A stretch of 64,000 bases of DNA. Source: Actinomycetes bacterium. Lineage in GTDB: Bacteria > Actinomycetota > Thermoleophilia > RBG-16-64-13. Where the stretch lies: the NCBI GenBank assembly GCA_024637035.1, contig JAGXFW010000016.1, positions 124,001 through 188,000 on the forward strand. Reading direction: 5' to 3'. Both the position numbers and the translations under genes were made by a program. The notes beneath the pieces are model-generated. The model was given only the letters and a program-made list of their open reading frames with translations, was not told the DNA's origin and did no database searches. Below, one piece after another: positions 8,325 through 19,015 of the stretch (positions within the stretch are counted from its first letter, which is position 1; every line of letters starts with the position of its first letter).

Positions 8325-9332
8325 TCACCCGCCTTCGCCCACGACCACCTCCTGTCGGGTCCCCGGCACCAGCCGCGCCACCGGGAGGCTGGCGGTGGAC
8401 GCCCAGCGACGAACGCCGGGCGAATCCACCAACCTCGCGCCTTCGCCGAAACGGACCTCCCCCGAGGTGAACACTCCCCCATGCAGCGTCGTGCCTTCGA
8501 GGCGCACGCCGAGGTCGCCGGCAAGGGCCACCCCGTACAAGTCTCCAAAGCCTGTGAGGTCCAGCGGCACGTCCTGCCCCCCCACCAACAGCACGGGGCG
8601 TTCCGGCGCCGTCCCCTGGCCCGCCCCCAATGCGGGTTTGCCCGCCCGGTCAACCTCGGCGAGGACCACTCGACTCGATGACAGGCCGGCCGCCTGCTTC
8701 AGTACGAGTAACTGCCACTGGTCGAGTGCCCACGCCCGACCAAAATCGACTTCGACCGAAGACGAACTCGGGGGGAAAGGGCTCGGCGAACGCAGGGATA
8801 CGCGTGCCGGTGCCTCACCGCCGCCCATCACCACCTCGGCAAATGTGTGGCCCTCCGCGACACTCGCGTTCGCCGCCACCAGCACACGATCCGGCAGATC
8901 GATCCCGTCGGCCGCCCGCTCCAAGCGGGCCCGCACCTCGAGGATACCGCCTTCTACCGGCACGCCGGCGAGGACGCCCAAGCTGAAAGGAGCCGCACGG
9001 GGCGACTCCTCGATCCGAGCGTACGCAAGGCCTGGCACTTCCAAGGCGCGAACGCCCGGCTGTTCGGTAGCGGCAAGGAGAACCGAGGCGAGTCCCTCAT
9101 CGGCTCGAGCCAGGGCTTGGCGACCGCGCGCGTCTTCTTCGACGAGTAGTCGCGATAGATCGGCCACTGTGGCCAGGGCGAGCGCAGTCGCGCTGAGGCC
9201 GAAACAGATCACCAGTGTCGCGAGCAGAATGGACCCACGCTGCTCCGATAGGTCACGGGGCCGAGAACATCCGTGTGTCTCATGGGCGCGTTGTGATGTG
9301 CACGCCGTCCGCCGCATCGAGCGCCCTACCAT
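8325..9332 (-). CDS. PilX-like minor pilin / pilus accessory protein
   Basis: A 335-residue protein whose N-terminus carries a hydrophobic prepilin-like helix (RGSILLATLVICFGLSATAL) after a basic leader. It lacks the canonical Phe/Glu5 pattern, as PilX/GspK-type proteins often do. The C-terminal third (LDLTGFGDLYGVALAGDL, then GTTLHGGVFTSGEV) matches the corresponding part of the plus-strand pilin at 17822-19015, so the two are paralogues. The start ATG at 9332 overlaps the upstream pilin stop (ATGGTAG), indicating translational coupling. It is the last minor pilin of the minus-strand set and probably forms part of a pilus tip complex (inference). Confidence 0.72.
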   Translation of the reverse strand: MVGRSMRRTACTSQRAHETHGCSRPRDLSEQRGSILLATLVICFGLSATALALATVADLSRLLVEEDARGRQALARADEGLASVLLAATEQPGVRALEVPGLAYARIEESPRAAPFSLGVLAGVPVEGGILEVRARLERAADGIDLPDRVLVAANASVAEGHTFAEVVMGGGEAPARVSLRSPSPFPPSSSSVEVDFGRAWALDQWQLLVLKQAAGLSSSRVVLAEVDRAGKPALGAGQGTAPERPVLLVGGQDVPLDLTGFGDLYGVALAGDLGVRLEGTTLHGGVFTSGEVRFGEGARLVDSPGVRRWASTASLPVARLVPGTRQEVVVGEGG

Positions 9333-9916
9333 CCGAAGCTCATCTCGTCCGCGACACGGAGGCGGTGCCTTCCTCCAGACGAGTCGCCGATGATGGTAGC
9401 CTCGAAGCGCACCAGGTCCACTGCGGGCGCCTTCTGCGGGTAGATGGAGCCGGCCACGGTCGAATACTCAGATATGAGCGTGAAGCTTCCCGAACTCACC
9501 CCTTCCAGCATGGTCTTGTGGTCGGAGAAGGCGAGGTGGGACAGGGTAGTGGGCAACTGCCCGGGCCACGGCCTGCGGCGGCGCATCAGCGAGCTACCGG
9601 ACACCTCCCACTCCACGATCTCGAGCGCTCCAGAGCGGGGGTCGCGGGTAACGAAGACGACCTCGGAGGTGCCGGCCTGGAGAAGGGGATTCGGCCCCAG
9701 GTCCGTCGCGCCTTCGATCGTAGCCCCCCGAAGGTCGCGCTCCAGCCTTGCGGACGCCACGCGCCATGCGCCGAAAGCGACGGACGTGTCCTGAGCGGCC
9801 GCGGCTGCTGATTGGAGGGAGATCCACAAGGGTGCCACCCCAAGCATCAGAGTGAGCGAGAGCGCCATGCACACCAGGACCTCCACGACTGTGAAGGCTC
9901 GCTCAGAAGAAGACAT
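9326..9916 (-). CDS. Type IV minor pilin (PilW-like prepilin)
   Basis: A 196-residue class III-signal prepilin. A short leader (MSSSERA) is followed by the hydrophobic helix FTVVEVLVCMALSLTLML with the conserved Glu at +5. The residue before the predicted cleavage is Ala rather than the usual Gly. The globular part has LERDLRGATIEG and a later EVVFVTRDP strand, typical of PilW/GspJ-type minor pilins. It overlaps both neighbours on the same strand and belongs to the minor-pilin operon. Assembly at the cytoplasmic membrane would need machinery encoded elsewhere. Confidence 0.8.
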   Translation of the reverse strand: MSSSERAFTVVEVLVCMALSLTLMLGVAPLWISLQSAAAAAQDTSVAFGAWRVASARLERDLRGATIEGATDLGPNPLLQAGTSEVVFVTRDPRSGALEIVEWEVSGSSLMRRRRPWPGQLPTTLSHLAFSDHKTMLEGVSSGSFTLISEYSTVAGSIYPQKAPAVDLVRFEATIIGDSSGGRHRLRVADEMSFGW

Positions 9917-10652
9917 GCGTCACAGATCCGGGTTCGAGGCGCAACGATTGCGGTTCGCCGTCGCAGGAAAGACTCACGACGCCCGGGGGCACCAACAATG
10001 TCACAACGTCTCCCGCCTCCGTAGGAGTGCTCGCCGTGCCCAGGCCGCACAGGTCGAGTCGCCCCTGGCCCGGTATCTTCAGGTGGACCAAGGCGACCGC
10101 ACCACCTTCTTCGAAACGGCCGGCGGAAGGCGCAGGCGCACCTCCCGGCGACGCTGGAGGGGCGGTGGCTGTTGCAGGCCCCAGCCTCACTCGCCAGGGC
10201 ACTCCCCAGCCCCCTCCCTCCTCGCGGGCGCGTATCGTGAGCACGACGTCGCTCGAGAGTGCGACGTCGCCTGTGGAGGCGAACCCCTTCCCAGTGGCGT
10301 CCACAGCGGATCGTCCCATGGGCCATCCGTCTACCCACCACCCGATCTCTCGTTCGCGACCGCGGGGCCCTCCTTTCACCACTACCCCGACGCCGTTTCG
10401 ATCCGGGGTCGCTCCAACAACGGTCACATCCGACCACCTCCACAGCCGTCGCTGCTCGGAATCCGCATCCCCCGCAGTAGGAGCAGTTTCGAGCGAAGCG
10501 CGCCACGAGTCGACCACGTGTTCACGGAGCCCGAGGACGGAACCGGTGAGTGGCATGAGCACGAGGGAGACCATCGTGAGGGCCGCCAAGAGTTCGATGA
10601 GCGTCGATCCACCCTCCCGCCCGCGGAGCCGCGCACAGCGCATCGCTCTCAC
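9903..10652 (-). CDS. Type IV minor pilin-like protein
   Basis: A 249-residue prepilin-like protein: basic leader RLRGREGG, then STLIELLAALTMVSLVLMPL with Glu at +5; Ser replaces the usual Phe at +1. GTG at 10652 is chosen because it overlaps the upstream stop as GTGA and follows AGGGA; ATG at 10643 is an alternative. A much longer in-frame extension exists but is only the antisense shadow of the upstream gene. The C-terminal part includes a Pro/Ala-rich loop and a disulfide-compatible Cys pair (RLDLCGLG and LSCDGEP). It sits in the middle of the minus-strand minor pilin cluster. Confidence 0.75.
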   Translation of the reverse strand: MRAMRCARLRGREGGSTLIELLAALTMVSLVLMPLTGSVLGLREHVVDSWRASLETAPTAGDADSEQRRLWRWSDVTVVGATPDRNGVGVVVKGGPRGREREIGWWVDGWPMGRSAVDATGKGFASTGDVALSSDVVLTIRAREEGGGWGVPWRVRLGPATATAPPASPGGAPAPSAGRFEEGGAVALVHLKIPGQGRLDLCGLGTASTPTEAGDVVTLLVPPGVVSLSCDGEPQSLRLEPGSVTHVFF

Positions 10653-11140
10653 CGAGATTCCCTGCGAGTGAGGCCGCTCTCCACCCGTACCACCACCCTC
10701 TGCCCTGTGCCCTCGTCGCCGAAGTACACAGAACCCGCCGAATCGGGCGCCGCCGTCACGGGCACGAAGCTCACTCGCACACCGCCGTTCAGTCGCCATC
10801 GCGATACGTTGGTGCCGAGACCTGGAGCACCACCGGCGACGAGGAACCGCACTCCCGCGTGTCCCTCGGACGCGACGGTCAGTCCTTCGGCGTCCCAAGC
10901 CACTGTGCGCCCCGTGGCCGAGCCAAGTGCGCCCATCTGTGCGACGACGGCGGCCGTCTGGCAGATCAGCGCGTTGTTGCGATTCACCTGCTGGGCGAGG
11001 GCCGCGGCCACACTCGCGACGGGTAGAGCCGCGCATAGGGCGACAAGCGCGAGCGCGACGAGGAGTTCGATGAGGGTGTGGCCCGACTGGGCCTCAAGGC
11101 TCCGTGGATGAAAGGGCGAGTGAGGATAGTGCTGCATCAT
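10649..11140 (-). CDS. GspH/FimT-like minor pseudopilin
   Basis: A 163-residue protein with prepilin signal QSG followed by HTLIELLVALALVALCAALP. It has Glu at +5 and His instead of Phe at +1, then a GspH-like body ending with strands VYFGDEGTGQRVVVRVE. First gene of a tightly overlapping minor-pilin series. ATG at 11140 is preceded at six bases by TATCGT (11147-11152, minus strand), a possible leaderless promoter separate from the major pilin promoter. Likely a priming or tip subunit (inference from the family). Confidence 0.78.
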   Translation of the reverse strand: MMQHYPHSPFHPRSLEAQSGHTLIELLVALALVALCAALPVASVAAALAQQVNRNNALICQTAAVVAQMGALGSATGRTVAWDAEGLTVASEGHAGVRFLVAGGAPGLGTNVSRWRLNGGVRVSFVPVTAAPDSAGSVYFGDEGTGQRVVVRVESGLTRRESR

Positions 11141-11277
11141 GCCCAGACGATAGATGGCGAAGACGCTTGAGGGAATCGGACTGAGGTATGAGTATGGCGG
11201 CCGGGTGGCGGCGGAGGGGGCGGGTCGTTGCGCGTGCCGGATCGTTCAGGGGCGCCGAACAAGACCTTCGCTGAAGG

Positions 11278-11784
11278 TCACCAACTGGTGACCACGCTGC
11301 CTTCGACGACCCTCACCTTGAGATAGGTGACACCGACCGTTCCCGAGACCTTCACCTGGATACCATATTTGTTGCCACTCGCGCTCACGACGGCGAGATC
11401 GAACGTGTCCCAAGCCTCCCCGTAGTAGTCCATCTCCTTGCGGTTCGCCTGGGCGACGACGGCTGCGGTCACTTGAAGCGAAGCAGCGTCCACGAGGTCG
11501 GCGCTTGAGACCCGCCACGCGAGGTCAGGCTCGATGGCCTCCAGATTCGCCACGGTCAGCACGGCGTAGTTCGGAGCGTCGACGCGGGCGCTCTCCACTA
11601 CCGTCAGAGCGTTCCTGATGGAGGACAGCGCCGCGGTGTCCTGCGCTTGGCTCCTCGTTCCAAGGTACGTGGGTATCGCGATGGCCGCAAGGACTGCGAT
11701 GATCACGATGACCACCAGCAATTCGATCAGCGTGAAACCGGTCTGATGGGCCCAGTCGGTGGTTCGCCCATGCGCCTTCGTCAC
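11278..11784 (-). CDS. Type IV major-type pilin, second copy
   Basis: A 168-residue PilA/PilE-type pilin. The leader ends HQTG, followed by the canonical helix FTLIELLVVIVIIAVLAAIAIP. The body parallels the pilin at 13450-13932: a QAQDTAALSSIRNAL helix, then LEAIEPDLAWRVSS, and a C-terminal GNKYGIQVKVSG block ending SW, so they are paralogues. GTG at 11784 is chosen for its GGGAGG site eight bases upstream. No Cys pair is present. It follows the O-antigen-ligase-like gene and precedes the minor pilin set. Confidence 0.88.
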   Translation of the reverse strand: MTKAHGRTTDWAHQTGFTLIELLVVIVIIAVLAAIAIPTYLGTRSQAQDTAALSSIRNALTVVESARVDAPNYAVLTVANLEAIEPDLAWRVSSADLVDAASLQVTAAVVAQANRKEMDYYGEAWDTFDLAVVSASGNKYGIQVKVSGTVGVTYLKVRVVEGSVVTSW

Positions 11785-11862
11785 CAACACACCCTCCCAG
11801 CGGATGCTAGATACCGCATGCGTACACAGAATATCCACGCGGCGCAACGGATATAAACAATT

Positions 11863-13245
11863 CTACCCGGGATGCGATACGGCAACCGCCTTCGGGACGA
11901 CCGCCACAACAGCCCCCGCAAGCGTGCCGAGCAGCACCCACCATACCCCATCTACCCCGATGGCGGTAACGGTTATCAGGGACTGCCCCATGTACGCGAC
12001 GGCCGCAGCCCAGACTCCCGCGAGGGGCCATCTTTCGCCTGATGACATGAATGGCGCCGAGACAACCCCCGCGCCAAGGTACAGCACCCCCAACACCAAG
12101 CCGCTGAAGAGCACCGCACCGGGAAGGCCGGTCTCCACAGCCCACTCCAGGAGAACACTGTGCGGCTTGTCGGCGACGTGGTCTGCACCCTCGGCCGCAT
12201 CGTAGTCCGCGGTCCGGTATTCTTCGAAGTGCTCTGCCATCATGTCCGGCCCGACCCCGAACAGGGGATTGTCCCGTATCATGGCAATGGCGATCCCCCA
12301 TATGGCCACGCGCCCGGCGTTCCGGTCCGCCTGGGGGTCGGCAAGGGTCTGGACGCTCTGCGCTAGCGTGGTCTGCTGGACCGGCGTTCCCACCCAGGCC
12401 ACCAGTCCCACGAGGGCCACTCCCACCACAGCGGAGATTGCGGCCCCCAGGATCAGCCGACCCAACGCCTTCGCGCGCAAGGCCGGCCACCATAAGGCCA
12501 GGAAGCCAAGCGCAAGCCCGAGCCAGGCTGCCCTCGATGCCGTAAGACCCGTCACGGCTACGCCGAGCGCGGCAGTCGCCAACCACCAGTGTCGCGATCG
12601 CCGACCCTGCTCCATCCACAAGCCGAGCGCTACCAGGGTCGCCATCATCGAGTACGCGCCAAGGAAGATGGGGTTCCCAAGCGTCGAGAACACCCTCCCC
12701 CCTTCACCGCGGAAGGGCTCCCATGTGAAGGGATCGGCACCAAGCGACTGCGCGAGCGCATAGACCATCACCGGGAGCGCCGCCACTACCAGGGCTGCCG
12801 CAACTGTGCGTCCCTCCCCGCGGGCTATATCCTCCGAAGCCGAATAGGCAAGAACGAATAGCATCGAGTTGCCTAGGAGCATGAGATACCCATCCCGACG
12901 AACTGAATTGCCGGTGACGGCGATGGCCGAATCCCCCGAGACCAATGAAGCGATCAGTCCGTCGACCACGAGCAGGCCGAGGCACCAGAGCAGGGGGCTG
13001 GAGCGGACCCTGAAACCCCCAAGCGACATCCCTTCCACAAAGATGGCGAGACCCGCCGTCAAGGCGATCACCATCACGACCTGATACTTGATGTCTCCGA
13101 ACTTGACGAAATCCAAGGGTCTCATCGCCCATATCGGGAGGCTGACAGCGGCGATGAGGAGGGCCGTGCGCACGGTAGACATTCGATCCGGGGCCACCCC
13201 GCACGAGCCGCCCGGCGCCGATGTGATTGCGTTGCTCTTGCTCAC
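11863..13245 (-). CDS. O-antigen ligase-family membrane protein (Wzy_C)
   Basis: A 460-residue polytopic membrane protein with about twelve hydrophobic segments and the Wzy_C domain. The signature region includes RVFSTLGNPIFLGAYS and, in the large loop, GVGPDMMAEHFEEY followed by KPHSVLLEWAVETGLPGAV. The family includes O-antigen ligases, polymerases and bacterial O-oligosaccharyltransferases that glycosylate pilins. Its position between two pilin genes, in a monoderm-type genome, makes pilin glycosylation the more attractive role (inference). A long palindrome separates it from the upstream major pilin gene. Start ATG at 13245 fits family length; ATG at 13182 is an alternative. Confidence 0.82.
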   Translation of the reverse strand: MSKSNAITSAPGGSCGVAPDRMSTVRTALLIAAVSLPIWAMRPLDFVKFGDIKYQVVMVIALTAGLAIFVEGMSLGGFRVRSSPLLWCLGLLVVDGLIASLVSGDSAIAVTGNSVRRDGYLMLLGNSMLFVLAYSASEDIARGEGRTVAAALVVAALPVMVYALAQSLGADPFTWEPFRGEGGRVFSTLGNPIFLGAYSMMATLVALGLWMEQGRRSRHWWLATAALGVAVTGLTASRAAWLGLALGFLALWWPALRAKALGRLILGAAISAVVGVALVGLVAWVGTPVQQTTLAQSVQTLADPQADRNAGRVAIWGIAIAMIRDNPLFGVGPDMMAEHFEEYRTADYDAAEGADHVADKPHSVLLEWAVETGLPGAVLFSGLVLGVLYLGAGVVSAPFMSSGERWPLAGVWAAAVAYMGQSLITVTAIGVDGVWWVLLGTLAGAVVAVVPKAVAVSHPG

Positions 13246-13362: not shown

Positions 13363-13406
13363 GCAGAAACCAGAGACCCTGCGATCGCAGGGTCTCTGGT
13401 TTCTGC
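13363..13406. repeat. Perfect 44-base palindrome downstream of the major pilin
   Basis: Both halves match without mismatch around a central GCGATCGC, giving an uninterrupted hairpin of about 20 bp. On the minus strand it lies 44 bases after the pilin stop and 118 bases before the glycan-enzyme gene. No U-run follows on that strand; a weak pyrimidine run follows on the plus strand. It is most likely an mRNA-stabilising or partial-termination hairpin that raises pilin mRNA above the downstream genes. Confidence 0.75.
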
Positions 13407-13449: not shown

Positions 13450-13932
13450 TTACCAACCGCTGGAGAAGATGGTGCTGATTATCTTCACGAAGGTGGTGCC
13501 GCCGCCTGCGCCCTTGTTCACAACAACGCCGAACTTGTTCTCCGATTCTGACACAGTGCCGATCGCGTACGTGTTCGCCGTGCCCGAGTAGTTCACGGCT
13601 GCCGCGCTGGTCAAGGCAGTCGCGCCGATCGCCGCAGTTGTGGCTGCAGGACTCACGACGCTGAATGTCACCGACGGTTCGATCGCACCAAGCGACGTAG
13701 TCATCGCGGCACTATCAACGAACGTCCTCGAATCCACGTACTGCGATTCCATGGCCGTCATCGAGTTGCGTACGAGCGACTTGGCCGCCGCATCCTGAGC
13801 CTTCTGGCGCTGGCCAAGGAAGGTGGGGATGGCGATCGCGGCTAGGATGGCGATGATGATGATCACCACCAGAAGTTCGATGAGGGTGAAGCCGCCTTCG
13901 CCCTGCATCCTCTTGCGCATTGCCTGCAACAT
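13450..13932 (-). CDS. Major type IV pilin under a c-di-GMP riboswitch
   Basis: A 160-residue prepilin: leader MLQAMRKRMQGEGG, then the canonical FTLIELLVVIIIIAILAAIAIP helix and a small Ala/Thr/Ser-rich globular domain ending FSSGW. The start is fixed by an excellent AGGAGG site seven bases before ATG 13932. The short body, low-complexity C-terminus and strong translation signals fit the main structural subunit. It is the first gene of the minus-strand pilin set and is preceded by a class I c-di-GMP riboswitch with a spacer of about 90 bases, so its expression should respond to the second messenger. A long hairpin follows the gene. Confidence 0.92.
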   Translation of the reverse strand: MLQAMRKRMQGEGGFTLIELLVVIIIIAILAAIAIPTFLGQRQKAQDAAAKSLVRNSMTAMESQYVDSRTFVDSAAMTTSLGAIEPSVTFSVVSPAATTAAIGATALTSAAAVNYSGTANTYAIGTVSESENKFGVVVNKGAGGGTTFVKIISTIFSSGW

Positions 13933-14019
13933 GATTCCGACCTCCTTGTATAGAACACACGACCGTATCTTGCGCGACAAGCGAAAAGGCCTGCGGCGCT
14001 TTTGGCAAACCACAGACCT

Positions 14020-14106
14020 CAAGGGATCGGTGGCAGCTCAGCCGGCCTCTTGGGCCCTGGAGCTTTGCGTCCCACCCTCGCGAGTGGTTTGCCCTTTACA
14101 CCTTAT
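14020..14106 (-). ncRNA. Class I cyclic-di-GMP riboswitch (GEMM-I) upstream of the major pilin
   Basis: Read on the minus strand, the element contains the invariant GEMM core: GGTG then AAAGGGCAAACC. A P2-type hairpin CCACTCGCGAGGGTGG follows, then GACGCAAAGC. A second hairpin arm comes next (GGCC...GGCCGGCTGAGCTGCC), closing with CACCGATCC to pair with the opening GGTG. This is the c-di-GMP-I aptamer layout (Vc2 type, with GGGCAAACC and GACGCAAAGC as hallmarks). It lies within the leader of the major pilin. Downstream, GTGGTTTGCC (14004-14013) is the exact complement of GGCAAACCAC (14084-14093) in the aptamer and can form a competing helix. A short hairpin, AAAAG..GCC-GCA-GGCCTTTT, follows at about 13985-14003. 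Confidence 0.9.
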
Positions 14107-14319
14107 GACCCAAGTATTCCCGACTCGCTCGACTCTAGACAGGAAATGTTTCTTGCCTGATCTTCGTCGTCCTGCCGCTTGCGGGCGTACGTCTTCCCCG
14201 GGCCTACGTTGCACTGTATCGGCAGGATAGCCGCGGACTTGAGCGGTGTATCTACGCTCGATGGTGGGGATTGGCGCCGCGGGGTCGGGGACGTGCGTCG
14301 GCCGGCAGCCGAGTCGCCG

Positions 14320-15397: not shown

Positions 15398-15578
15398 ACG
15401 CGTCAACGTCGGCCGCGGTTCATACTTCTCAAGAAGAGGTAGTGGTCTGCCGATAGTATGGACAAGGGCCGAGCCTGGTTCGAGTGCCCCTGCATAAGGG
15501 CAGGTATGCGGAGAGACCGGAACCGCACGAGCTTCGGCGAGGGGCATGGGTTCTCCAGAGAGGAACGGGAGCGGAGGC

Positions 15579-17090
15579 ATGATAGACATACGTTTCCGAA
15601 GCCGGCACCATAAGGGCCCAAGCGCCGGCTTCACATTGATCGAAGTCATGGTCGCGAGCCTGTTGCTCCTCGTGGTCCTCGCGGGCTTCCTGCCTTTCTT
15701 CTTGAGCGGCTTGGAGAAGTCGTCGTCCTCTCGCTTCCGGAGTGCCGCCACGAACGTAGCTCGACAGAAGCTGGAAGAGATCCGACAACTCGACTATCGC
15801 GAGATCAAGCAGAATACGGCCGCGCCCACCGATCCCACCAATCTGAGCATTATGCTCGGCACGACCTCGGTCATGCGCGGGGTCACCTACAACATCGCGT
15901 ACTCTGTCGCTAACTCCGCATCAGGCGGGGGCCAGCTCAAGAAGGTCATCGTCACCGTTTCCTGGACCGGTAAGCCGGTGGGCGATCCGGCTGTCATGAG
16001 CACGCTGATCCACCAACAGTTCCTTGGGCCTCGGTTGTCCCTGGTTGAGTTCACGCCCACCATCAACCTCACCACCGACCCGCTCGGCTCCCCCTTCGCG
16101 TTGGTGTCGGGCACCATCGTGGCCAAGTACCACGTCGCCCGCAGCGATTGGGACCTCGTGTACAAGAACCTCAACCTGTCGGGTATGACCGCCAAGAACG
16201 TCTACCTACGCTCGGCCTTCATCGACGATCAAGGGGCCTCCGTGCAACTAGGGAATCCGACGCTCGAGTACCGGATCCCGTCATCGACGCTGAAGCACAC
16301 CTTCGGCGGTGACGGGAAGGTGAACGACATCTGGTTCGAGTACACCTTCGACAGCACCACCCTCCCCGACGGTTATTGGGATGTGGAGGGTCTTGCCTAC
16401 AACGAGTTCGACCAGCCGGGCAACCTGTACAAGTTGCGCGTACGGATCGAGAAGGCCGCGCCGAATGCGGTCGCCAACCTTCTGGCTCAGGTGGCCGACG
16501 ACAAGACCATCCTTCTCACCTGGGTGCCCGGCGCCGAGCGAGACCGGGTCTCCTGGGTTCTCGAGCGCCGCAAGCGCGATACGGCGGGCACGTGGACCAC
16601 CCCTTGGGTGACCGTGACCACATTGCTCGGCATTGAAAACACCTACACCGACGTGGGGAACACGACCACGTTCATCGATCCATGGGGCACCACGGCAACG
16701 ACCAACACCTATCAGTACAGCCTCAAGGGCATCGATATCGCGGGGAAAGTGGGCACTCCGGTCACCGTGCAGCAGGAACTGCCGGCGACGGCCGTCGTGT
16801 CTACGACCACCACGACGGGCGGCACTACCACGACGGCCGCCGCGCTCTACTTCGTCACCATCAAAAACAGCGCCCCCAAGGCTTTCAACCTCACGGTGAA
16901 GGACTCGAGCAACACGACCGTCTATACCGGTCAGGTAGGGAAGAACGGTGGCATCGTGACGATCGGCAACCTCCCGCCGGGCAACTACCAGGTCACGGCA
17001 GTCGAGGTGACCAGCAAGTCGCCGCGTACGCTCTCTACGACCTTCCTGCTTCCCGCCCAGGCCGGTCAACAGGTCTGGAACATCTTCTGA
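15579..17090 (+). CDS. PilV-like prepilin with Fn3-like domain and Thr-rich linker
   Basis: A 503-residue prepilin. Leader SRHHKGPSAG precedes FTLIEVMVASLLLLVVLAG (Glu at +5). A PilV-like region follows (NVARQKLEEIRQLDY), then an extended beta-rich domain. About residues 305-410 form a fibronectin-III-like module (ANLLAQVADDKTILLTWVPG to YQYSLKGIDIAGKVG), then a TTTTTGGTTTT linker and a carboxypeptidase-regulatory-like beta domain (GNLPPGNYQVTAVEV). ATG at 15579 follows GGAGCGGAGG. Its large size and adhesin-like modules suggest a tip-located minor pilin that contacts surfaces or substrates (inference). First gene of a three-gene plus-strand pilin operon. Confidence 0.82.
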   Translation: MIDIRFRSRHHKGPSAGFTLIEVMVASLLLLVVLAGFLPFFLSGLEKSSSSRFRSAATNVARQKLEEIRQLDYREIKQNTAAPTDPTNLSIMLGTTSVMRGVTYNIAYSVANSASGGGQLKKVIVTVSWTGKPVGDPAVMSTLIHQQFLGPRLSLVEFTPTINLTTDPLGSPFALVSGTIVAKYHVARSDWDLVYKNLNLSGMTAKNVYLRSAFIDDQGASVQLGNPTLEYRIPSSTLKHTFGGDGKVNDIWFEYTFDSTTLPDGYWDVEGLAYNEFDQPGNLYKLRVRIEKAAPNAVANLLAQVADDKTILLTWVPGAERDRVSWVLERRKRDTAGTWTTPWVTVTTLLGIENTYTDVGNTTTFIDPWGTTATTNTYQYSLKGIDIAGKVGTPVTVQQELPATAVVSTTTTTGGTTTTAAALYFVTIKNSAPKAFNLTVKDSSNTTVYTGQVGKNGGIVTIGNLPPGNYQVTAVEVTSKSPRTLSTTFLLPAQAGQQVWNIF

Positions 17091-17109
17091 TGGAAGCACG
17101 GCCCACGTC

Positions 17110-17805
17110 ATGATGGCACGACTCTGCAGATCGATTCGCTCGCGGTCGGTCAATGCCGCTGGTCAAGACGGGGTCACCTTGGTGGAACTCCTCGTGGTCA
17201 TGATGCTTATGATCGTGGTCATGGGGGCCATCTTCACCGTCTGGAGTCGACTCGAGCACACCTACTTGTTCACCGAAGACGACATCCGTGCGCAGGAACA
17301 GGCGCGCATGGCGCTGGGCGAGATGGTCGAGTTCATCCGCACGGCGCGCACCCCCGCTTCTGTCACCAGCGAAGTCCTGGATGCGCCGATCCCGAAGGCC
17401 ACACCCGAAGAGATCTGGATCTGGACCGACGTCGACCGCGACGCCAGCCACACTCTCGAACTGGTGCGCTTCTACCTCAGTACAGTCGGTACCAACTCCT
17501 ACCTCCTCCGTCAGGAGTCTCCCTCCAAGGACGGCAACTTCACGTCGACCGCCGTACGTATCGTGAACGAGAACATCAGGAACGACCCGGCGGGCACCCC
17601 GATAGCCTCACCGGTGAAGCCCATGTTCAAATACTACGATTCGGGCGGTTCCCAGCTCACACCGAATGCAACGACACGTTCCGTGGACGTAACACAGATC
17701 CGCTCGATCCGGATCCACCTGATGGTCGATATCGACCCGAACAGGGCCCCGGTGGTGCACGAGTTGACATCCGTCGTCCAGCCGCGCAACTTGAGAACGT
17801 ACTGA
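17110..17805 (+). CDS. PilW-like minor pilin
   Basis: A 231-residue prepilin with leader ending AAGQDG and helix VTLVELLVVMMLMIVVMGA, Glu at +5. The body has the PilW/GspJ pattern: ARMALGEMVEFIRTART near residue 65 and a C-terminal strand IHLMVDIDPN. It starts 20 bases after the PilV-like stop and ends 16 bases before the PilX-like start, so it is co-transcribed. The ribosome-binding site is weak; the second Met is a possible start. Confidence 0.8.
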   Translation: MMARLCRSIRSRSVNAAGQDGVTLVELLVVMMLMIVVMGAIFTVWSRLEHTYLFTEDDIRAQEQARMALGEMVEFIRTARTPASVTSEVLDAPIPKATPEEIWIWTDVDRDASHTLELVRFYLSTVGTNSYLLRQESPSKDGNFTSTAVRIVNENIRNDPAGTPIASPVKPMFKYYDSGGSQLTPNATTRSVDVTQIRSIRIHLMVDIDPNRAPVVHELTSVVQPRNLRTY

Positions 17806-17821
17806 GGCAGGAGAGGCCAAC

Positions 17822-19015
17822 ATGAACCATCACGACACACATCGGAAGCCCTTCGGGGCGCGTCTGGTTCATTCGGAAGACGGCTCACTCGTGGTGATCG
17901 TCATGATGTTCGCCATGGTCTTCCTGGCGATGGGCATCGCACTGTTCTTCCTTGTAAAATCGAGCATCCTCGGTACCGAGCTCGAGTCCAAAGAAGTCAA
18001 GTCGTTCAACGTGGCGGAAGCCGGCGTCGACTACGGCATGTTGGATCTCAAGACGAAATGGCCCAGCACGACCGCCGACGCTCAGACCACCGCCAATGTG
18101 AGCGCGATAACCACAGCTCTCCGATCCGACTTCGATGCGTCGAAGTTCCGTGACCCCACCCGGTCCGCGGCCGCCGACTTCATCAAGGTGACGTACTACG
18201 ACAACACGGGCGCCAGCAACCCTCCGGCCTGGGACTCGAACGGTGACGGCTTGATGTACGTTTCCAGCGAAGCCAACGTCGACGACGACCGCCACCGCAT
18301 CATCATCCTCGCCGAACGGCAGGCCTGGCACTTGAACTTCCCCCTCATCGCCTTGTACACCAACTCGTTCGACGCCAATGGCCAAGGCCTCGACATCGCT
18401 ATCGACCCCCTGCAGACGGCGCCGCTCCCCCTCGGCGGCAGCAGCGTACCCGCGTTCTACAACAGCCAAGTAGGGGCCAAGGGTCTCGATCTCGGCACCA
18501 ACATCGTGGCGAACCCTTCAGCTGCCGGCACGTTCGACAGCTGGGTGGGCATCGGGCTCATGGGCTCGCTCAAGGCCATCGCGCAGGGCGAGGGCACCTA
18601 CTTCACGAACGCCGCCGCCGCCTCTACCCTTCTCTTCTCGGGCAACGCAAGCGGCAAGATCATCTACCTCGAGAGCCCCACCGGCGCGGTGGATATCTCA
18701 GGTAACACGCAGATAGGCTCGCGCGCGAATCCGGTGGTGCTGGTAATCGACGCGGGCACCCAGCAGATCGGGCTCGACCTAAAGGGCGGCGCCGACTTCT
18801 ACGGCATCCTCGTCATCAAAGGGGACGCCGAACTGCGCGGCACCTCGAGCATCTACGGCTCGGTGCTCGTCTCGGGCAAGATCATCAACAAGGGTAACGG
18901 GAGCTCACCTGAGATCAACTACAACGGCGACATCCTGAACTCGGTCAACCGCGCCTACACGATCGGCGTGAGCATCGTGCCGAACACCTGGGAGGAATAC
19001 ACGACTCCCAAGTAG
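17822..19015 (+). CDS. PilX-like minor pilin with beta-helix-like tail
   Basis: A 397-residue protein with an N-terminal PilX-type helix after EDG (SLVVIVMMFAMVFLAMGIAL), then a VKSFNVAEAGVDYGMLDLK stretch typical of PilX/GspK, and an extended beta-rich domain. The C-terminal GLDLKGGADFYGILVIKG block, followed by GTSSIYGSVLVSGKI, looks like right-handed beta-helix or bactofilin-like rungs. It is shared with the minus-strand gene at 8325-9332. A strong AGGAGAGG site precedes ATG 17822. Last gene of the plus-strand pilin operon, convergent with dut. Confidence 0.78.
   Translation: MNHHDTHRKPFGARLVHSEDGSLVVIVMMFAMVFLAMGIALFFLVKSSILGTELESKEVKSFNVAEAGVDYGMLDLKTKWPSTTADAQTTANVSAITTALRSDFDASKFRDPTRSAAADFIKVTYYDNTGASNPPAWDSNGDGLMYVSSEANVDDDRHRIIILAERQAWHLNFPLIALYTNSFDANGQGLDIAIDPLQTAPLPLGGSSVPAFYNSQVGAKGLDLGTNIVANPSAAGTFDSWVGIGLMGSLKAIAQGEGTYFTNAAAASTLLFSGNASGKIIYLESPTGAVDISGNTQIGSRANPVVLVIDAGTQQIGLDLKGGADFYGILVIKGDAELRGTSSIYGSVLVSGKIINKGNGSSPEINYNGDILNSVNRAYTIGVSIVPNTWEEYTTPK

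Follow-up and report, generated by a model that had tools for sequence, protein, structure and literature searches.

Identity and Context of the Aptamer

The question raised by this locus is whether the minus-strand leader of a type IV pilin gene carries a riboswitch for c-di-GMP and, if so, in which direction the second messenger would drive the gene. Within the 64,000-nucleotide stretch of DNA that was analyzed (the window), a complete class I c-di-GMP aptamer lies at 14028-14103 on the minus strand, in the leader of the pilin gene at 13450-13932 (minus strand). A cmscan of the 64-kb window returns RF03167 (c-di-GMP-I-GGC) at 59.7 bits (E = 1.4e-11), marginally above the gathering score of 59 for that model. 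The initial annotation had called the element class I and proposed an Infernal check with RF01051; in a genome search that model scores the aptamer at 58.7 bits (E = 8.6e-11) against a gathering score of 35, and the class assignment holds. RF03167 and RF01051 belong to the same clan, and their scores, one bit apart, are a near-tie. Only two RF01051 matches exceed the threshold in the whole genome, and the window aptamer is one of them. The class II model RF01786 has no match in the window at its gathering threshold, and none at E ≤ 0.1 in 13900-14250.

Alignment to the model places P1 (AGGTG/CACC), P2, P3, and the core elements GGCAAACC and GACGCAAAG in the window aptamer, with a GNRA-type tetraloop, GCGA, closing P2. 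The GEMM-I hallmarks that had been recognized by eye are indeed present on the minus strand (GGGCAAACC at 14094-14086 and GACGCAAAGC at 14070-14061), as are the two hairpins and the GGTG/CACC closing helix; the span first assigned to the element, 14020-14106, contains the aptamer and is a few bases wider than it. We conclude that the reported element exists and that, as an aptamer, it is typical of an established riboswitch class.

The gene downstream encodes a pilin of 160 aa with the N-terminus GFTLIELLVVIIIIAILAAIAIPTF, which matches N_methyl (PF07963) at 30.6 bits and TIGR02532 at 29.3 bits. Its Shine-Dalgarno sequence, AAGGAGG, can be read directly at 13947-13941 (minus strand), and its ATG at 13932 lies ∼96 nt past the end of the aptamer, in agreement with the proposed target. 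That this is the major pilin is plausible, given its own leader, the strong Shine-Dalgarno sequence, and the perfect inverted repeat directly after the gene (13363-13406, minus strand; 20 pairs, with a T-rich tail on the plus strand), which is likely a terminator or an RNA stabilizer. A second pilin is encoded in the window at 11278-11847. We note that the regions flanking the riboswitch and its pilin, 8325-13245 on the minus strand and 15546-19015 on the plus strand, hold this second pilin together with several prepilin-like genes. An O-antigen-ligase-like gene (Wzy_C) is also found nearby, and pilin glycosylation is possible.

Expected Ligand

In Vc2, the ligand is contacted by G20, A47, and C92 (PMC4744006, PMC7288161). 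When the window aptamer is aligned to Vc2 numbering, these positions correspond to G at 14093, A at 14066, and C at 14033, the last being the least certain of the three assignments. Because all three contacts appear to be present, we treat the aptamer as canonical class I, with c-di-GMP as the expected ligand. A different ligand, either 3',3'-cGAMP or a still unknown molecule recognized by the GGC variant, is suggested by the one-bit lead of RF03167 over RF01051, and we regard it as highly improbable. G20 and A47 fit c-di-GMP binders, the GGC model is also top-scoring for other aptamers that bear A47, and the genome contains 17 GGDEF matches (together with one EAL match). The GGC label is not read as a ligand call because the RF03167 consensus, as we read it, has G at the A47 position (CGCGAAg) where the window has CGCAAAG; with A47 present, the label is ruled out as evidence of a ligand change. 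Within the class, A47 is kept in every one of the 32 pilin-linked aptamers.

Expression Platform and Direction of Control

The initial annotation did not describe an expression platform, and it is this element that adds a direction to the switch: modeling of the platform predicts OFF control. Two segments on the minus strand are perfect complements of one another. The first, the aptamer core strand GGCAAACCAC (14084-14093), comprises the ligand-contact strand and the 5' side of P2; the second, GTGGTTTGCC (14004-14013), is its perfect antisense, and its GTGG also caps the 5' arm of the terminator. In the minimum-energy fold of the leader, GGCAAACCAC pairs with the downstream GTGGTTTGCC, and the aptamer is destroyed. 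The core antisense recurs in 15 of 30 pilin leaders (families f1, f3, and f6), a level that no more than 10 of 300 shuffles attain, and it was found in none of ∼60 non-pilin aptamer leaders.

An intrinsic terminator occupies 13979-14019 (minus strand), in which AGGTCTGTGG (14019-14010) pairs with CCGCAGGCCT (13996-13987) and is followed by UUUUCGCUU. The 10-bp stem is 99.3% paired across an alignment of 15 relatives (A1); five of its ten pairs are changed on both sides, and its covariation score is reached by 0 of 500 shuffles. A third helix, GCGCcGCAGGC/GCTTGTcGCGC (13972-13999, minus strand), pairs the terminator 3' arm with sequence lying past the U-tract in the read-through form, and it covaries as well (86% paired, six pairs with changes on both sides). 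Sequence, models, and covariation together show the aptamer and where it lies, the conserved antisense, and the conserved terminator, and they show that antisense pairing and terminator exclude one another.

Computed on a transcript that ends after the U-tract, the probability of the terminator rises from 0.002 in the free window leader to 0.93 when the aptamer core is enforced. Formation of the aptamer costs 0.25 kcal/mol alone and 6.1 kcal/mol with the platform attached, and 11 of 200 shuffled platforms disfavor the aptamer as strongly. The antiterminator and terminator are mutually exclusive, and in these computations the terminator is favored once the aptamer has formed. Seven relatives clearly shift in the same way as the window.

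Taken with the position of the aptamer, these data suggest to us that the leader probably acts as a class I c-di-GMP riboswitch, silencing the pilin gene (OFF control) via transcription termination. The OFF logic follows from the antiterminating strand pairing with the ligand-binding core itself. RNA polymerase would start just upstream, so that the aptamer is transcribed first. At low c-di-GMP, GUGGUUUGCC would pair with the core strand GGCAAACCAC, which would both dismantle the aptamer and use up the terminator 5' arm, and the pilin would be transcribed. With c-di-GMP bound, the core strand would be locked in the aptamer and the terminator 5' arm left free to form the hairpin, which would end transcription before the pilin gene. 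What we infer is the ligand, the direction of control, and how strong that control is in vivo.

Direction differs among known class I switches, some of which are ON switches, and each case needs its own test (PMC6366702). An ON switch, in which the ligand-bound form blocks termination or frees the ribosome site as for C. difficile pilA1, would accord with these precedents and with the activation of C. difficile pili by c-di-GMP; here, however, the antiterminator forms by pairing with the very strand that binds the ligand, which makes the two incompatible, and we consider an ON switch very unlikely.

Several observations weigh against the OFF reading, among them the result for the 11 shuffled platforms and the varying direction of class I switches given above. 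In addition, the U-tract of the window, UUUUCGCUU, is imperfect; for roughly half of the relatives the equilibrium model yields the terminator whether or not the aptamer is enforced; and the f5 and f7 pilin leaders keep the aptamer without a platform of the window type or an evident terminator. The imperfect U-tract and the f5 and f7 leaders would suit an aptamer that works mainly on translation, with the hairpin playing a minor part. We judge this unlikely, as the stem covaries, the same stem is followed by ∼7 U in f6 relatives, and sequestration of the Shine-Dalgarno sequence was not consistently seen in the folds inspected.

Distribution in Relatives and in the Phylum

RF01051 matches occur in 59 of 99 genomes of relatives. 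Within the class, five families have the aptamer immediately upstream of FTLIELL pilins, mostly with a closing helix of the AGGTG/CACC type, so the arrangement is not unusual in its own lineage. A class I switch in an actinobacterial pilin leader had been described as less expected, a view that the wider sample does not bear out: 152 of 397 sampled genomes of the phylum exceed the RF01051 cutoff, and pilins are a recurrent target, lying downstream at 9 of 50 sampled aptamer loci outside the class, in seven more families. We found no class I switch before an actinobacterial pilin in the open-license papers searched.

One relative carries two tandem pilin genes, each with an identical riboswitch leader (L124:401-480 and 1283-1362). 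The other c-di-GMP-I riboswitch of the present genome, on contig C30, precedes a gene (52-54 kb; L129:2145-3992) for a putative secreted-type glycosyl hydrolase of 615 aa, with GHL15, an Ig-domain (Big_7), and a threonine-rich linker.

Putative Promoters and a Sigma Factor Linked to pilC

No promoter emerged from a scan with the sigma-70 consensus; the conserved block upstream is of another type. At 14115-14140 (minus strand), a promoter-like block, GTCTA-N14-GGGAATA, stands at a fixed spacing 10-11 nt before the aptamer, and we take its form, GTCTA-N14-GGGNATA, to resemble SigB/SigF-type promoters. It is common to the f1, f3, and f6 pilin leaders, where 21 of 32 score at least 9/11, a score reached by 2.3% of shuffles and 2 of 60 non-pilin leaders.

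A candidate for the cognate sigma factor lies on the same contig. The pilB-pilT-pilC cluster, whose PilB has an MshEN domain, is located at C33:62-66 kb, and directly after pilC is a sigma gene (C33:61254-62099; L130:5254-6099), ∼62 kb before the start of the window. Its best NCBIfam match is SigBFG at 182.6 bits, which is below the cutoff of that model. Relatives at least 48% identical are found in f1, f3, and f6, with PilC immediately upstream in 21 of 22 loci examined, and the order pilT-pilC-sigma is conserved over the three families (relatives L224-L244). In 11 f3 and f6 genomes, the riboswitch is at most 250 nt downstream of the sigma gene. Of the scanned genomes that have the riboswitch-pilin leader, 19 carry the GTCTA promoter, and 17 of these encode the pilC-linked sigma; 4 lack the promoter, and none of the 4 encodes this sigma (Fisher p = 0.0017, a value inflated by shared ancestry). 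No pilC-linked sigma was found in the open-license papers searched.

The f5 and f7 pilin leaders carry TAAAG-N14/15-GCCGATA in place of the GTCTA block, as do many further c-di-GMP-I leaders in the actinobacteria. Across 141 actinomycetotal leaders, 51 score at least 10/12 (shuffles, 1-2%). This is the flagellar/WhiG consensus used in PMC8325347, the same study that reports control of type IV pili by RsiG-(c-di-GMP)-WhiG in Rubrobacter; the word "riboswitch" is absent from it. WhiG/FliA-type promoters were seen upstream of aptamers at L136, L161, L165, L166, L169, L195, L079, L112, L127, and L001, and the C30 riboswitch has a WhiG-type promoter as well. WhiG itself is encoded beside rpsB at C33:189.3 kb (L201; 269.7 bits), just outside the window. 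A DNA-pattern search for the RsiG motif gave no credible gene, because the c-di-GMP motif EREVSKTRRIIHAKLD has Q changed to H in this genome; the Pfam model PF22802 located a single-motif RsiG of 91 aa at C33:58.5 kb (L213:1465-1740), ∼5 kb from pilT.

We are evenly divided on whether these elements form a two-level pilus module, in which a dedicated SigB/F/G-type sigma encoded after pilC would drive GTCTA-N14-GGGNATA and the resulting pilin transcript would begin with an OFF riboswitch of the c-di-GMP-I type. Elsewhere in the actinobacteria, WhiG-type promoters would feed the same kind of riboswitch; if WhiG is held by c-di-GMP-RsiG, as in Rubrobacter, c-di-GMP would act twice on one transcript. 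No description of such a two-level module was found in the literature searched.

If these predictions hold, c-di-GMP silences the pilin through RNA across a large, mostly uncultured part of the Actinomycetota, and control by c-di-GMP at the level of RNA, of the sigma factor, and of PilB (MshEN) would meet at one machine. The sigma-promoter-riboswitch arrangement yields concrete, testable predictions. New here are the OFF control predicted for a pilin gene, the covarying antisense-to-core platform, and the linked sigma/promoter system, all functional steps being predictions.

Comparison with Known Systems

The closest parallels come from C. difficile. Cd1, before flgB, shares the aptamer class (GEMM-I, RF01051) and a motility or surface target, and the functional class I switches of that organism are terminator-based OFF switches, a logic like that predicted for the window (PMC6366702). 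The window differs in that its target is a type IV pilin and its host is an uncultured actinobacterium, and it may also differ in its antiterminator, which is directly antisense to the core strand of the aptamer. Cdi-2-4 (class II), before pilA1, is likewise an RNA switch for c-di-GMP whose terminator lies immediately upstream of a type IV pilin gene (PMC6366702), but it belongs to the other aptamer class, and the sign predicted for the window is contrary to this well-known case: pilA1 is turned ON, the window pilin OFF. The c-di-GMP-I-GGC family (RF03167) shares the overall fold and gives the best Rfam score by its one bit, and differs in the A47 position noted above. Rubrobacter RsiG-WhiG also places pilus genes under c-di-GMP, in a class reported to be sister to Thermoleophilia; its route is a sigma factor, whereas that of the window is RNA, and the promoter of the window pilin is not of the WhiG type.
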